Source: Tenacibaculum aquimarinum (lineage in GTDB: Bacteria; Bacteroidota; Bacteroidia; Flavobacteriales; Flavobacteriaceae). Taken from it: DNA of 64,000 nt. Shown here in pieces: positions 54,895-60,110 of this stretch; positions within the stretch are counted from its first letter, which is position 1, and every line of letters starts with the position of its first letter. Where the stretch lies: contig NZ_JAKGSC010000003.1 in the NCBI RefSeq assembly GCF_022478115.1, positions 186,001-250,000 on the forward strand, written 5' to 3'. The notes under the pieces were generated by a model. It saw nothing but the letters and a program-made list of their open reading frames with translations, made no database searches and was not told where the DNA came from. Both the position numbers and the translations under genes were made by a program.

Positions 54895-55389
54895 TTATGG
54901 GTTTAGTATTTTTTTCAACTTATCTTTTGCTCTGTTCATTTTAACTCGAGCGTTTACCTCAGAAATACCTAGTGTTACAGCTATTTCTTTGTAAGGTTTG
55001 TCCTCCAAATACAAGAAAATTAATGCTTTATCTATATCTCCCATTTTTCTAATGGCTGCATATAAAGACTTTAATTGTAATTCTTGTGTGTCATCGTAAT
55101 CCTCACCTTTTATTTTATACGCAAAATCTTCAATGTCTTGCGTTTTTATTCTTCTTGTTGATTTTCGATACAACGAAATAGCTGTATTTAAAGCAACTCT
55201 ATACATCCAAGTGCTAAACTTCGCTTCGCCACGAAACTTGGAGTAGTTTTTCCAAAGTTGAATGGTTATCTCTTGAAACAAATCGTTATGCGCGTGTTGG
55301 TTTGTCGTGTAAATTCTACAAACCTTATGCACAATATTCTGATTTTGTTCAAAGTCGGCTAAAAATTTTTGCTCTTGTTCGCTTTGCAC
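54895..55389 (-). CDS. ECF-type RNA polymerase sigma factor
   Basis: Directs RNA polymerase to a small regulon. The 164 residues hold region 2 (HNDLFQEITIQLWKNYSKFRGEAKFSTWMYRVALNTAI) and region 4 (LIFLYLEDKPYKEIAVTLGISEVNARVKMNRAKDKLKK) without region 3, the ECF architecture. First gene of a leftward operon with a membrane protein and a barrel protein, and divergent from the LytTR operon across a shared 182-bp region. Confidence 0.94.
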   Translation of the reverse strand: MQSEQEQKFLADFEQNQNIVHKVCRIYTTNQHAHNDLFQEITIQLWKNYSKFRGEAKFSTWMYRVALNTAISLYRKSTRRIKTQDIEDFAYKIKGEDYDDTQELQLKSLYAAIRKMGDIDKALIFLYLEDKPYKEIAVTLGISEVNARVKMNRAKDKLKKILNP

Positions 55390-55450
55390 TTAGTTAGTTT
55401 AGTTGATTATAGATAAGATGCTCAAAAGTAGAAATTGTTACACTTAAATT

Positions 55451-55501
55451 GAAGTTTATTTTAAAATAAATACAATTCAGCATAAAATATGTACAGTTCG
55501 G
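55451..55501 (+). promoter_or_regulatory. three LytTR half-sites at 21-bp period
   Basis: GAAGTTTAT (55451), ACAATTCAG (55472) and ACAGTTCGG (55493) match the LytTR half-site [TA][AC][CA]GTTN[AG][TG] at 8, 8 and 9 of 9 positions, with starts exactly 21 bp apart. They lie about 47-97 bp before the likely start of the operon that encodes a LytTR regulator. Confidence 0.72.
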
Positions 55502-55534
55502 TAGTTTTAAATTTAAAAAAGCTGAGTTCTATTG

Positions 55535-55542
55535 CATATTTG
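55535..55542 (+). promoter_or_regulatory. -7 box candidate of the LytTR operon
   Basis: CATATTTG (one mismatch to TANNTTTG), 29 bp before the DUF2141 gene and 33 bp after the last LytTR half-site. Confidence 0.42.
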
Positions 55543-55571
55543 TACCATAATTAACCATTAAAACAAAAATT

Positions 55572-55985
55572 ATGAAAACAATTGTAACTATCGCAACATT
55601 AGCTTTATTATTTGTATTTAATACTTTAGAAGCTCAAAACAAAACAATAACAGTGTCTATAGAAAATGTAACTTCTGATGAAGGTAAAGTAGGTTTTGCT
55701 TTATATACTAAAGATAATTTTATGGGGAAACCTGTTCAAGGTACTGAAGGGAAAATTAAAGATGGTAAAACGTCTGTAGTTTTTGAAAATGTTACTCCAG
55801 GAGAATATGCAATTATTTGTTACCATGATAAAAACAACAATAATAAATTAGATTTTGCAGCAAACAGAATGCCTTTAGAAGATTTTGGAGCATCAAATAA
55901 CAATATGTCTTTTGGACCACCACAATTTGAAGATGCAAAGTTTGCTGTTTCTGATAAAAATGTATCTTTAGAAATCAAATTTTAA
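55572..55985 (+). CDS. exported DUF2141 protein
   Basis: A 137-residue protein with signal peptide (MKTIVTIATLALLFVFNTLEAQ). The mature part is a compact beta fold with KVGFALYTKDNFMG, TPGEYAIICYHDKNNNNKLDF and DFGASNN, the DUF2141 signature. Function unknown. It is first in the operon that continues with the kinase 24 bp downstream, so it may be the output or the sensed partner of that system. Confidence 0.88.
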   Translation: MKTIVTIATLALLFVFNTLEAQNKTITVSIENVTSDEGKVGFALYTKDNFMGKPVQGTEGKIKDGKTSVVFENVTPGEYAIICYHDKNNNNKLDFAANRMPLEDFGASNNNMSFGPPQFEDAKFAVSDKNVSLEIKF

Positions 55986-56009: not shown

Positions 56010-57365
56010 ATGAAATCAACTGTTTCAAATTCATTTAAAAGTTTAAAAAGTGACGTTTGGGTTTGTTTAAAACTTACAATCGCATTTGGAATCCTTTTCA
56101 TAATAATAAATCAAAAGTTTACTTTAAAAGGAGCAGGTTATACGTTTTTAATTTCTGCAATGTATTCTTTTACTTTAGGCTTAGGTAACGGAATAGTTAA
56201 CGATTACTTAAATACAAAATGGAATTGGGTTACAGAAACAAATCAAAGAGTTTGGTCTGGAGTTATAGCAACCGTAATTTATACAGTTGTAGCTGTTTTG
56301 TTAATACATTATGTGCAATATATATTAATGTTTGGGTACGATCCTGCTAACTTTTTTAAAGGATATTTAATTTGGGTACATCTTTTTGCAATTATTATTT
56401 CATTAGGAATCGCTGCTTTTTTTCATGCAAAAGGTTTTATGGTAAACTGGAAAGCTGCCATGACACAAGAAAATACACAACAACAATTTGTAGCTAAAAC
56501 AGAAACAGCAAAATTTGAAACATTAAAAAATCAATTAGATCCACATTTTTTATTCAACAGTTTAAATGTTTTAACTTCTTTAATTGGTGAAAATCCTGCG
56601 CAAGCAGAAAAATTTACCACAAAACTATCTAAAGTTTACAGGTATGTTTTAGAGCAGAGAAATAAAGATTTAACGCCTTTGGCGGAAGAATTAAAGTTTG
56701 CAAAAGCTTATATGGAACTATTATCAATGCGATTTGAAGATGCAGTAGAGTTTAATATTCCTTCAGAAGTTAGTAGTGATAGTTTAAAAATTGTGCCATT
56801 ATCATTACAATTGTTATTAGAAAATGCAGTGAAGCATAATGTAGTTTCTTCTGTAAAACCTTTAAAGATTTCAATAACAGAAGAAAATGGATTTTTAAAG
56901 GTTACCAATAATGTTAATCCGAAGGAAGCAATTGGTAAAAGCACAAAAGTAGGTTTGCAAAATATTGCAGATCGCTATGGATTAATAACTGATAGATCGG
57001 TAGAAATAACAAATAATAAAAGAATATTTACGGTAAGTTTACCCTTACTAACACAAATAAATAGCATTATGAGAACCTCAGAAGATTACGAAAATAGTAA
57101 ATATGTACGCGCCGTAGAACGTGTAGAAAAAATGAAAGAATTTTATCAAAATTTGGTAACGTATTTAGTAATGGTACCAGTTTTTATATACATTAACTTA
57201 CGTTTTGTACCACAATTTCATTGGTTTTGGTTTCCAATTTTTGGATGGGGAATAGGAGTTTTATTCCACGGATTAGAAGCTCACAACTATAGCGTTTTTA
57301 TGGGTAAAGATTGGGAAAGTAAAAAGATAAAAGAACTAATGGACAACGATAAAAATAACTATTAA
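56010..57365 (+). CDS. LytS/YehU-type sensor histidine kinase with C-terminal 2TM domain
   Basis: Membrane sensor kinase of 451 residues. Four membrane helices occupy about 16-142. The cytoplasmic His_kinase domain has the phosphoacceptor His179 in QLDPHFLFNSLNVL and an ATPase part with LLLENAVKHNVV and VGLQNIADRYG. Unusually, the kinase is followed by a 2TM domain (about 363-446: YVRAVERVEKMKEFYQNL, two helices, then GKDWESKKIKELMD). The same module occurs as three free proteins downstream, and a LytTR regulator ends the operon. The signal sensed is unknown. Confidence 0.92.
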   Translation: MKSTVSNSFKSLKSDVWVCLKLTIAFGILFIIINQKFTLKGAGYTFLISAMYSFTLGLGNGIVNDYLNTKWNWVTETNQRVWSGVIATVIYTVVAVLLIHYVQYILMFGYDPANFFKGYLIWVHLFAIIISLGIAAFFHAKGFMVNWKAAMTQENTQQQFVAKTETAKFETLKNQLDPHFLFNSLNVLTSLIGENPAQAEKFTTKLSKVYRYVLEQRNKDLTPLAEELKFAKAYMELLSMRFEDAVEFNIPSEVSSDSLKIVPLSLQLLLENAVKHNVVSSVKPLKISITEENGFLKVTNNVNPKEAIGKSTKVGLQNIADRYGLITDRSVEITNNKRIFTVSLPLLTQINSIMRTSEDYENSKYVRAVERVEKMKEFYQNLVTYLVMVPVFIYINLRFVPQFHWFWFPIFGWGIGVLFHGLEAHNYSVFMGKDWESKKIKELMDNDKNNY

Positions 57366-57366
57366 G

Positions 57367-57660
57367 ATGAGCGCTAATTTAAAAAAAGAAGAAAGCTACT
57401 TAAAAGCTAAAAAGAAGGTAAAAGACATAAAAGGATTTTATATTCATTTAACAGTCAATATAGTTTCAATTGCAATAATTGTAACCGTTAATTTATTGTT
57501 TTCTCCTGGTTATCATTGGTTTTGGTATGCTGTGTTTGGAATAACAATTGCCCAATTAATACATGCTGTAGTTGTATTTGGATTCCCAAATTATGGTTTT
57601 GATAAAAATTGGGAGGAGAAAAAAATAAAAGAATTAATGAATAACGATTTAAAAAAATAA
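57367..57660 (+). CDS. 2TM domain protein 1
   Basis: A 97-residue membrane protein of the 2TM family: amphipathic start AKKKVKDIKGFYIHL, two membrane helices (about 29-48 and 57-75), then FGFPNYGFDKNWEEKKIKELM. It starts one base after the kinase stop and is very similar in pattern to the C-terminal domain of that kinase and to the next two genes. Function unknown; likely interacts with the kinase through the shared module (inference). Confidence 0.88.
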   Translation: MSANLKKEESYLKAKKKVKDIKGFYIHLTVNIVSIAIIVTVNLLFSPGYHWFWYAVFGITIAQLIHAVVVFGFPNYGFDKNWEEKKIKELMNNDLKK

Positions 57661-57664
57661 TAAG

Positions 57665-58009
57665 ATGGAATCAAATTATTTAGAAGAACAACGCTATATA
57701 AAAGCAAAGAAACGTGTAGATAATATTAAAGGATTTTACATTCATTTATTAGTTTATGTATTGGTAAATATATTTATAACAGGTGTAATCATTTTCGGAT
57801 TAACGCATGATGAAGATTTAACTTTTACCGAAGCAATAACGCATCCTGGAGCTTATATGACTTGGTTAGGTTGGGGAATTGGAGTGTTTTTTCATTGGTT
57901 AGGAGTTTTTGGATTTCCTTCAGTAATCTCTAAAGATTGGGAAGAAAGAAAAATCAAAGAATTAATGGGAGAAGACGAAGAAAAATCGAATAAATACTTA
58001 AAGAAATAA
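57665..58009 (+). CDS. 2TM domain protein 2
   Basis: A 114-residue 2TM protein: AKKRVDNIKGFYIHLLVYVLVNI opens helix 1; an extracytoplasmic loop GLTHDEDLTFTEAITHPGAY is longer than in its neighbour; helix 2 (GWGIGVFFHWLGVFGFP) leads to SKDWEERKIKELMGEDEE. It lies 4 bp after protein 1. Function unknown. Confidence 0.87.
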   Translation: MESNYLEEQRYIKAKKRVDNIKGFYIHLLVYVLVNIFITGVIIFGLTHDEDLTFTEAITHPGAYMTWLGWGIGVFFHWLGVFGFPSVISKDWEERKIKELMGEDEEKSNKYLKK

Positions 58010-58010
58010 G

Positions 58011-58331
58011 ATGAGGGAAATAGATAATAGAAACGATAGTCAAAAGTATATTCGTGCTAAAAAACGAATAGAAGACATTAAAAGCTTTTATAAACACCTT
58101 TCTTTTTATTTAATAATAAACCTGTTTTTTATAATTAGAAGAATTTATAAAGACATACAATATGGCGATTCTGTTTTTGAAGCGCTAACCGATTTAGACA
58201 ATTATCGATTCTTTTTTTGGTGGGGAATTGTCTTAATTTTTCATGCCGTTGGAACCTTCGGAATTCCAAATTTATTTAGCAAAGAGTGGGAAGAGCGAAA
58301 AATTAAAGAATATATGAACAACAATCGTTAA
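58011..58331 (+). CDS. 2TM domain protein 3
   Basis: A 106-residue 2TM protein with AKKRIEDIKSFYKHLSFYLIINLF, a loop with DSVFEALTDLDNYR, helix 2 FFWWGIVLIFHAVGTFGIP and the closing FSKEWEERKIKEYM. It follows protein 2 by one base and precedes the response regulator by 34 bp. Function unknown. Confidence 0.87.
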   Translation: MREIDNRNDSQKYIRAKKRIEDIKSFYKHLSFYLIINLFFIIRRIYKDIQYGDSVFEALTDLDNYRFFFWWGIVLIFHAVGTFGIPNLFSKEWEERKIKEYMNNNR

Positions 58332-58365: not shown

Positions 58366-59121
58366 ATGAAAATAATTATTATTGAAGACGAAAAACCTGC
58401 TGCAAGAAGACTTGGAAGAATGTTAGCGGAACTTAACTTAGAAGCACAACAAATGTTACATTCTGTTGAAGAATCTATCAATTGGTTTCAAAATAACGAA
58501 CATCCAGATTTAATATTTTTAGACATTCAGCTTTCAGACGGATTGTCATTTGAGATTTTTGAAGAAGTAGAAGTGAAGTCGGCAATAATATTTACAACAG
58601 CCTATGATGAATATGCATTAAAGGCTTTTAAACTTAATTCAATTGATTATTTATTAAAACCTATTGATGAAGATGAATTAAAAATTGCAGTTGATAAGTT
58701 TAAAGAAAACCAGCCAAAACAAACCAATTTACAAGTTAATATAGATGATATTAGAAAATTGTTAGTAAATCCGGTTGATAGAAAATTCAAAAAACGATTT
58801 ACTATAAAAGTTGGTCAACATCTTAAAATTATTCCAACTGATGAAATTGAAAGTTTTTATTCAGAAAATAAAGCAACCTATATTCATACTTCAACTAACA
58901 GAAATTATTTGATTGATAACTCTTTAGAACATTGGCAAGAAGAACTAAATCCAGGTCAGTTTTTTAGAGTAAATAGAACTTTTATTGTGAATATAAATGC
59001 GATAAAAGATATTGTTTCTTATACAAACTCACGTTTACAAATAAAGTTAAATTCTTATAATGAATCTGAAATTATTGTAAGTAGAGAACGTGTAAAAGAC
59101 TTTAAAAATTGGATTGATTAG
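58366..59121 (+). CDS. LytTR family response regulator
   Basis: DNA-binding regulator of 251 residues. The receiver domain (about 1-118) has the acidic pair in IIEDEKPAA and phosphoacceptor Asp53 (LIFLDIQLSDG), with the switch residues TTAYDEYALKAF and Lys in LLKPIDE. The LytTR domain (about 145-250) has KVGQHLKIIPTDEIESFYSENKATYIH and RVNRTFIVNINAIKDI. As the last gene after the LytS-type kinase it is the expected partner, and tandem LytTR half-sites lie before its operon. Confidence 0.94.
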   Translation: MKIIIIEDEKPAARRLGRMLAELNLEAQQMLHSVEESINWFQNNEHPDLIFLDIQLSDGLSFEIFEEVEVKSAIIFTTAYDEYALKAFKLNSIDYLLKPIDEDELKIAVDKFKENQPKQTNLQVNIDDIRKLLVNPVDRKFKKRFTIKVGQHLKIIPTDEIESFYSENKATYIHTSTNRNYLIDNSLEHWQEELNPGQFFRVNRTFIVNINAIKDIVSYTNSRLQIKLNSYNESEIIVSRERVKDFKNWID

Positions 59122-60110
59122 TTTTTTGCCTTTATAAAATCAGAAATTAAATAACTAATAAACTTACCAACTTGACCGCTAGCAGTGCTGTTTTCCATAA
59201 TTGCAGGCGCTCCTTCACAAATATGTAAATAACTTGCATTACTGTTTTTGCTTAAAAAATGAACAAATCTACGAGTTTGTTGAGGTGAAAAACCACTTGG
59301 AGACATTGCGCTACTCGGAAAATTTTGAATACAGTCTAAATCTATTTCAATTCCAAAATATTTATCATTTATAAAATTTTCAGCGCGTTCTAATTCACTT
59401 TCAAATGAAGTAGATTTATAGATTTCTAGCGCTTCGTATAAATTATAATCAATTAATGTGTTTTTATGAATAGCATCAAAAATATATTGAGGAGTATAGT
59501 TTTCGTGCAGTCCAAACATAAAATATTTGTGTACAAATTTTTGATCAATTGCATACGAAAAACCATTACCGCTATGGCGTTCTTCTAAAAGACGTAAGTC
59601 AGAATGTGCATCAAAATTAATTGCATTTATAGGTTGGTTTTTAGCTTCAGATAATCCTTTTAAGTTTCCAAAAGCATTGTTGTGTCCACCGCCAATTATA
59701 ATAGGAATTTTACCTGAACGAACAATTTTTTTCACAATATCAGATAGTTGTTCATCTATTTTCTTGACTAATAGATCTCCTTTTTTTCTCTCATTTTTAT
59801 CAAAATTAGTAACAGCGTCGCTATAATTTAAATACCCTAAAACAAGAATATCATCACCTTTAATAAATTGATTTTGTTGAATATTTAAAAAGGATTTTAA
59901 AGCAGGAATAAAAGCAGATTGTGCGCCACCATTTCCGTAATTCATTTTTACGCCAATATCTTCAGGAACTCCAATAATTACAAATTTTGCTGAAGAATTT
60001 TTAAGGTTTTCAACAGAAGAAATTGTTTGTACAACTTCACCTAGTTTAGTTTCTCCATTTCTTGGATTCACAAAATTATCAATGTCTTTTTGAGAAAATA
60101 AGTCTAACAT
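59118..60110 (-). CDS. hutG: formimidoylglutamase
   Basis: Arginase-family enzyme that hydrolyses N-formimidoyl-glutamate in histidine breakdown. The 330 residues have the metal motifs GGGHNNAFG, NFDAHSDLR and FGIEIDLDCI. Hut assignment rests on the 2-bp distance to hutI; other ureohydrolases look alike. Its stop overlaps the LytTR regulator's stop by 4 bp. hutH and hutU are not in the window. Confidence 0.88.
   Translation of the reverse strand: MLDLFSQKDIDNFVNPRNGETKLGEVVQTISSVENLKNSSAKFVIIGVPEDIGVKMNYGNGGAQSAFIPALKSFLNIQQNQFIKGDDILVLGYLNYSDAVTNFDKNERKKGDLLVKKIDEQLSDIVKKIVRSGKIPIIIGGGHNNAFGNLKGLSEAKNQPINAINFDAHSDLRLLEERHSGNGFSYAIDQKFVHKYFMFGLHENYTPQYIFDAIHKNTLIDYNLYEALEIYKSTSFESELERAENFINDKYFGIEIDLDCIQNFPSSAMSPSGFSPQQTRRFVHFLSKNSNASYLHICEGAPAIMENSTASGQVGKFISYLISDFIKAKN

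Follow-up and report, generated by a model that had tools for sequence, protein, structure and literature searches.

A putative two-half-site LytTR operator upstream of a kinase-2TM-regulator operon in Tenacibaculum, with a predicted regulon of envelope genes in Flavobacteriaceae

Background

According to the excerpted text of PMC4227749, AgrA reads repeats at P2 and P3 of S. aureus whose centre lies near -60, and the promoter that follows them is suboptimal. The locus described here resembles such AgrA-type operators, as that excerpt presents them, in having two direct repeats for a LytTR response regulator, predicted to be centred near -60, and a suboptimal promoter downstream. It differs from them in its half-sites (ACAAYTCAK/ACAGTTCGG), in the Bacteroidota -7 box TAnnTTTG, in a kinase that carries a C-terminal 2TM domain and in a different set of targets.

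The second group for comparison are LytTR Regulatory Systems (LRS). In the part of PMC6193735 that deals with them, HdrRM and BrsRM have 9-bp repeats mostly 12 bp apart, which lie about 10 bp before the -35 and mediate positive autoregulation. The same part describes LRS-like operons of Bacteroides, with 11-bp repeats located 11 bp apart and 11 bp before a TATCTTTG-type promoter. Our locus shares with the LRS of that account the direct repeats in front of its own operon, here with 9 bp to the expected -33. However, an LRS has a membrane inhibitor without a histidine kinase, and this is not the arrangement found. One of the operon's proteins is a His_kinase protein and the regulator possesses a receiver domain (Pfam), so we regard the system as a two-component system and not as a membrane-inhibitor LRS.

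Our search of the open-access literature (most subscription papers lie outside it) brought up neither a defined operator nor a regulon of any kinase-linked LytTR regulator from Flavobacteriaceae. The excerpts of PMC10197871, PMC10057207 and PMC5395568 have no bearing on the system.

Results and discussion

Locus and neighbouring genes

The window, by which we mean the whole analysed stretch of 64,000 nucleotides from Tenacibaculum aquimarinum, belongs to a genome of 2.83 Mb (G000). A sequence-only reading of this DNA had described a gap of 182 bp shared with a divergent ECF sigma gene and an operon ending with a LytTR regulator at 58366-59121, all of which we confirm; the gap (55390-55571) separates the ECF gene from the operon. 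The three repeats it had reported, GAAGTTTAT at 55451, ACAATTCAG at 55472 and ACAGTTCGG at 55493, are exact in letters and coordinates. The features of the locus are as follows.

54895..55389, minus strand: divergent ECF sigma factor, neighbour of the operon (Pfam PF04542 + PF08281)
55451..55459, plus strand: claimed third unit, GAAGTTTAT, unconserved and judged to lie outside the element
55472..55480, plus strand: putative LytTR half-site 1, ACAATTCAG, consensus ACARYTCRK, about -75 to -67 from the predicted start; present in 39 of 39 promoters
55493..55501, plus strand: putative LytTR half-site 2, ACAGTTCGG, consensus ACARYTSRG, about -54 to -46; 21 bp after half-site 1 in 39 of 39
55511..55514, plus strand: expected -33 position, degenerate (ATTT), 9 bp after half-site 2, read from the sequence
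55535..55542, plus strand: putative sigma-A -7 box, CATATTTG, consensus TAnnTTTG
55572..55985, plus strand: DUF2141 protein, operon gene 1 (Pfam PF09912, 4.3e-30)
56010..57365, plus strand: LytS-type histidine kinase with C-terminal 2TM domain (Pfam PF06580 + PF13239)
57367..58331, plus strand: three small 2TM-domain proteins (57367-57660, 57665-58009, 58011-58331; Pfam PF13239 each)
58366..59121, plus strand: REC-LytTR response regulator, presumed operator binder (Pfam PF00072 + PF04397), correlated with the element in 299 genomes

The gene order DUF2141, kinase, 2TM genes, regulator is widely conserved in the genus; one locus (L050) gave no DUF2141 or separate 2TM matches. The 2TM count per operon differs among same-genus loci (L039-L078, and 57367-58331 in the window), with about 3-7 tblastn matches where the operon is complete, and this varying number suggests an expanding array of small membrane proteins. 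At its other end, the regulator gene shares 4 bp (59118-59121) with a convergent arginase-family gene (59118-60110, minus strand), the two overlapping at their stops. The gene beyond the latter resembles imidazolonepropionase (named by eye).

The closest named matches of the regulator are from Tenacibaculum and Polaribacter. In NCBIfam, six of nine proteins scanned had no family; the match of the TonB-dependent receptor discussed below was partial and under cut-off, the regulator matches shown were all under cut-off, and for the ECF protein the sole match was to ECF sigma factors in general. Sequence search of the PDB returned nothing for DUF2141 and receiver-domain matches for the regulator; with the TonB receptor, it gave a single short stretch of a SusC homologue.

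Conservation of the half-sites

LytTR half-sites follow a loose consensus, [TA][AC][CA]GTTN[AG][TG]. Inside the window it is uninformative. At 8 of 9 positions or better it fits 758 of the 63,992 plus-strand positions, and its 21-bp pairs (11 on the plus strand, 8 on the minus strand) are no commoner than pairs at other spacings between 15 and 27. Single triples also occur at spacings of 17, 19 and 26 on the plus strand and 18 on the minus strand. The triple seen in the window alone is thus weak evidence. It is comparison that makes the signal real, because relatives conserve the sequence of two units, their 21-bp spacing and their distance to the -7 box.

Of the 57 other genomes of the genus that were searched, 49 contain a regulator match that is nearly full-length and at least 75% identical, by our count from the search listing. 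Upstream DNA was taken for 40 of these 49 genomes; two loci (L039 and L059) stop short of the promoter, which leaves 38 and, together with the window, 39 promoters. When gaps of 14-29 were tried, with ties broken towards 21, the best half-site pair lay 21 bp apart in all 39 (the window and 38 same-genus loci). In every one of the 38 promoters measured, the start of TTTG follows half-site 2 at a distance of exactly 37 bp. The 39th, that of L050, was too short in the spacing measurement, and the composite element (two half-sites at 21 bp plus the -7 box; its reversed pattern served as control) fits it with 1 mismatch. Only the columns of the half-sites and of the promoter are conserved: the mean is 1.59 and 1.74 bits per column for half-sites 1 and 2 and 1.52 for the -7 box, compared with 0.12 upstream.

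The fixed spacing does not depend on how the pairs were sought. A pattern with free start-to-start spacing of 18-26 bp yielded 47 matches in 35 of 58 genomes, 46 of them at 21 bp, and none when reversed as a control in the same 58 genomes. The lone match at another spacing is located inside an open frame and lacks a -7 box. Furthermore, we inspected position +37 in 25 sites not chosen on the -7 box (22 of the 47 free-spacing matches and 3 own-genome sites), and 24 of them carry TTTG (18) or TTTA (6). The pair, two 9-bp half-sites about 21 bp apart, has the layout of a LytTR direct-repeat operator, and its architecture is a textbook one. The comparison supports the earlier suggestion that the pair is a LytTR-type operator, putatively of the operon that ends with a LytTR regulator. 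Loss of the 21-bp periodicity in relatives had been named as grounds for refuting it; we find the periodicity kept for the units at 55472 and 55493 and lost for the one at 55451.

Association with the regulator

At up to 1 mismatch, the composite is present in 219 of 299 family genomes and its control in 2. A strong regulator match, defined as E <= 1e-80 by a cut-off set after seeing the table, occurs in 224 of these 299 sampled, mutually related genomes. The element accompanies it in 214 of the 224, being absent at up to 1 mismatch from the other 10, and occurs in 5 of the 75 genomes without such a match. Since the genomes are related and the cut-off was chosen afterwards, the Fisher p-value of this contrast should not be read at face value. 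Three of these five exceptions (G136, G255 and G290) have a weaker regulator match, with E from 1e-67 to 1e-79. Of the 17 genomes that measure 3 Mb or more and lack the regulator, 4 contain the element; a difference in genome size may therefore account for some of the contrast, though not for the whole.

In 61 of 80 named loci the element lies upstream of the regulator on the same strand at up to 2 mismatches, compared with 0 for the reversed control. Twelve of the 80 show no element at up to 3 mismatches, and four of these have short upstream DNA. The element stays before the operon across the genus and in the named family genera.

Some genomes carry the element without the regulator. In G039, which has no regulator match, it stands in front of DUF2141 and kinase genes, and the short contig breaks off ahead of the place where a regulator would be expected, so that incompleteness is the likely cause. 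G008 has no regulator ortholog, but a full element stands 96 bp ahead of a 219-aa gene (region of L249:1306, minus strand); an identical 71-bp stretch with the full element occurs in G016 (L250:1159, plus strand). The element in G008 and G016 may be read by another LytTR protein. G010 and G014, both without an ortholog, have one candidate composite match each at up to 2 mismatches.

Paralogous LytTR loci of the genus provide a further comparison. In four of five, the downstream regulator is 43-46% identical to ours and a different half-site, ACARYTSAYTACA, is found twice at 21 bp. The fifth has the ACARYTSAYTACA pair and no regulator match within the stretch taken. The positions of these operators are L244:959, L245:878, L246:914 (minus strand), L247:1116 and L248:1017 (minus strand). 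Different half-sites before paralogous regulators make it likely that the operators are regulator-specific.

These data bear on the question whether the main binder of the LytTR operator could be another LytTR protein of the genome, or whether several paralogs share the site. The own genome contains 8 LytTR-domain matches, and the case of G008 points in the same direction. Against this stand the co-occurrence of the element with the operon's regulator in the 299 genomes, the identity of only 33% for the next-best match listed in the own genome, and the use of ACARYTSAYTACA by the paralogs examined. We consider a different or shared binder improbable.

Promoter geometry and proposed model

The consensus of the -33 promoter element is TTTG, and its expected position in our promoter is degenerate. 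The repeats end 9 bp before this position, close to the published distance of about 10 bp from the -35 in LRS (PMC6193735), and they are fixed to the promoter, with TTTG at +37 in 38 of 38. In F. psychrophilum, the -7 box occupies -12 to -5 (excerpt of PMC9723704). If the same applies here, the transcription start would be near 55547 and the pair would be centred near -60.

We propose that 55472-55501 is very probably a two-half-site LytTR operator of its own operon, serving self-activation as well as a compact envelope regulon. The operator would have the layout ACARYTCRK - 12 bp - ACARYTSRG and lie just upstream of a weak sigma-A-type promoter. The membrane kinase would phosphorylate the response regulator encoded at 58366-59121, as the receiver and kinase domains (Pfam) suggest. 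A regulator dimer would then bind both half-sites, which are two helical turns apart, and recruit polymerase to the weak promoter of the DUF2141-kinase-2TM-regulator operon. A positive feedback loop would arise. As the operon behind this operator ends with the LytTR regulator gene, self-activation is the natural reading; the element is kept before the operon, at fixed promoter distance, and co-occurs with the regulator. Besides, the composite element would drive genes for a TonB-dependent receptor, DUF2141/TPR-like proteins, and DUF2807 head-GIN plus DUF4440 proteins. From these targets alone we infer a role in the envelope, and presumably an envelope-related signal.

In a different model, the site would be a repressor or dual-purpose site, at which the regulator holds the operon low and releases it on a signal. 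The sign of regulation is not given by bioinformatics alone. Still, the pair is located upstream of the -33 and clear of the -7 box, the -33 is degenerate, and the placement is as described for activation by AgrA and HdrR (excerpts of PMC4227749 and PMC6193735, respectively). A repressor or dual-purpose site is in our opinion quite unlikely, and activation is the reading we retain.

The third unit and the divergent ECF gene

The sequence-only reading went further in two respects: three units were suggested to load cooperatively, and the same sites were thought to possibly control the divergent ECF gene. In its favour, the 9-mer at 55451 is placed 21 bp ahead of half-site 1 and agrees with the loose consensus at 8 of 9 positions. 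Across the 39 promoters, however, this position is not conserved. Its mean match at offset -21 is 3.28 of 9, compared with 2.90-4.00 at 17 other offsets tried, and its conservation of 0.138 bits per column compares with 0.12 for the upstream background. As the 55451 unit is at background, we count two half-sites and not three; chance is the best reading of this unit, and we reject the three-site array.

Of the 38 same-genus loci whose promoter could be read, tblastn revealed an ECF homologue in 9; in the 29 where it revealed none, the pair and its spacing are unchanged. No composite on the opposite strand occurs upstream of the regulator in the 80 named loci at up to 3 mismatches, and no ECF gene is present among the target clusters of 110 sites described below. 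The element points one way, towards the DUF2141 operon, and co-control of the ECF gene is unsupported. Cooperative loading of three half-sites that control the LytTR and the divergent ECF operons alike is highly improbable.

As for mere chance repeats in AT-rich DNA, the lack of enrichment of 21-bp loose-consensus pairs within the window would speak for them, but for the two conserved units they are refuted by every cross-genome test when set against its control.

Sites and downstream genes

At up to 2 mismatches, the composite has 202 sites in the 58 genus genomes, compared with 10 for the reversed control. A loose search for further sites in the own genome, allowing up to 3 mismatches, gave 43 matches compared with 37 in the reversed control; since this is barely above control, only the four matches at up to 1 mismatch were kept. 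Adding the -7 box to the search returned the same four sites, each with 0 mismatches.

Site 1: before the window operon (DUF2141-kinase-2TM-regulator)
Site 2: C7:14895, 92 bp before a 718-aa TonB-dependent receptor
Site 3: C7:17152, 95 bp before a 210-aa TPR-like protein
Site 4: C11:34135, minus strand, 96 bp before a DUF2807 head-GIN gene

The DUF2807 head-GIN gene is followed by a DUF4440 gene and preceded by DUF4870, PadR and PspC/Toastrack genes. We note that the element of the DUF2807 operon starts a few bases past the end of the PspC gene (own genome, L120:3344-6654). This arrangement is reminiscent of Psp/Toastrack envelope-stress modules, which comprise PspC, Toastrack and HAAS-PadR in the excerpt of PMC11237479: the site of the DUF2807 (Toastrack-class) gene is directly behind a DUF4870-PadR-PspC/Toastrack cluster. 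Unlike these modules, the window operon is without PspA, PspC or PadR, and no composite element at up to 2 mismatches occurs before the PadR-PspC genes of the own genome.

The same kinds of genes recur in other genomes. Of the 47 free-spacing matches, classified from their positions and open frames, 27 belong to the regulator operon, 10 to DUF2141/TPR-like and 5 to DUF2807 head-GIN genes; the remaining ones are 3 TonB-dependent receptors, 1 ABC transporter and 1 chance match. Pfam was run on the own-genome members and one DUF2141 protein, and other targets were assigned by likeness. A larger set of 110 sites is biased in composition, with 40 loci chosen by regulator, 20 by site clustering, 20 from free-spacing matches and 2 from own-genome matches, plus the window; its downstream genes encode DUF2141 (56), TonB receptor (18), DUF2807 (12), TPR-like (7), kinase/2TM (5) and DUF4440 proteins (2) and an ABC transporter (1), one frame is apparently spurious, and for 8 sites the simple gene finder reported no downstream gene.

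Four named loci (L177, L182, L186 and L191) have a second, weaker composite match with 1-3 mismatches that is closer to the regulator, about 1.1-1.5 kb upstream of it. This is perhaps an internal promoter.

Beyond the family

Outside the family, the composite at up to 1 mismatch was found in 8 of 192 genomes of the class, compared with 2 for the control. Six of 20 distant loci have a match upstream of the regulator at up to 3 mismatches: L242 (0; included because of its match), L227 (1), L225 (2), L226 (3), L229 (3) and L235 (3). The reversed control gave none at up to 4, and the other 14 loci have nothing at up to 3. We observed that some regulator loci of other families in the class keep the geometry of 21 + 37 bp with drifted half-site letters, for example ACGCTTCAG; in the orientation of the regulator, such sites are L242:1514, L227:1904, L225:1157, L226:1885 and L235:3754. 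The spacing is preserved in a few distant families whose half-site letters have drifted, so the geometry may predate these letters. A plasmid search with the promoter plus DUF2141 gave no match.

Conclusions

Taken together, the operator, the promoter geometry and a short list of targets can be read directly from the sequence. It is quite conceivable, and we advance it tentatively, that they belong to an unrecognised core regulon of Flavobacteriaceae. In it, a self-amplifying 2TM-kinase/LytTR system would use a rigid operator (21 bp; 37 bp to TTTG) to mount an outer-envelope stress response, in which a TonB-dependent receptor, secreted proteins of the DUF2141/TPR-like kind and head-GIN proteins of the Toastrack class are turned on. 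If so, the uncharacterised families DUF2141, 2TM and head-GIN and the small TonB-dependent receptor become testable as one response. The rigid 21 + 37 bp geometry would also be a simple tool in the search for other LytTR regulons in the phylum.
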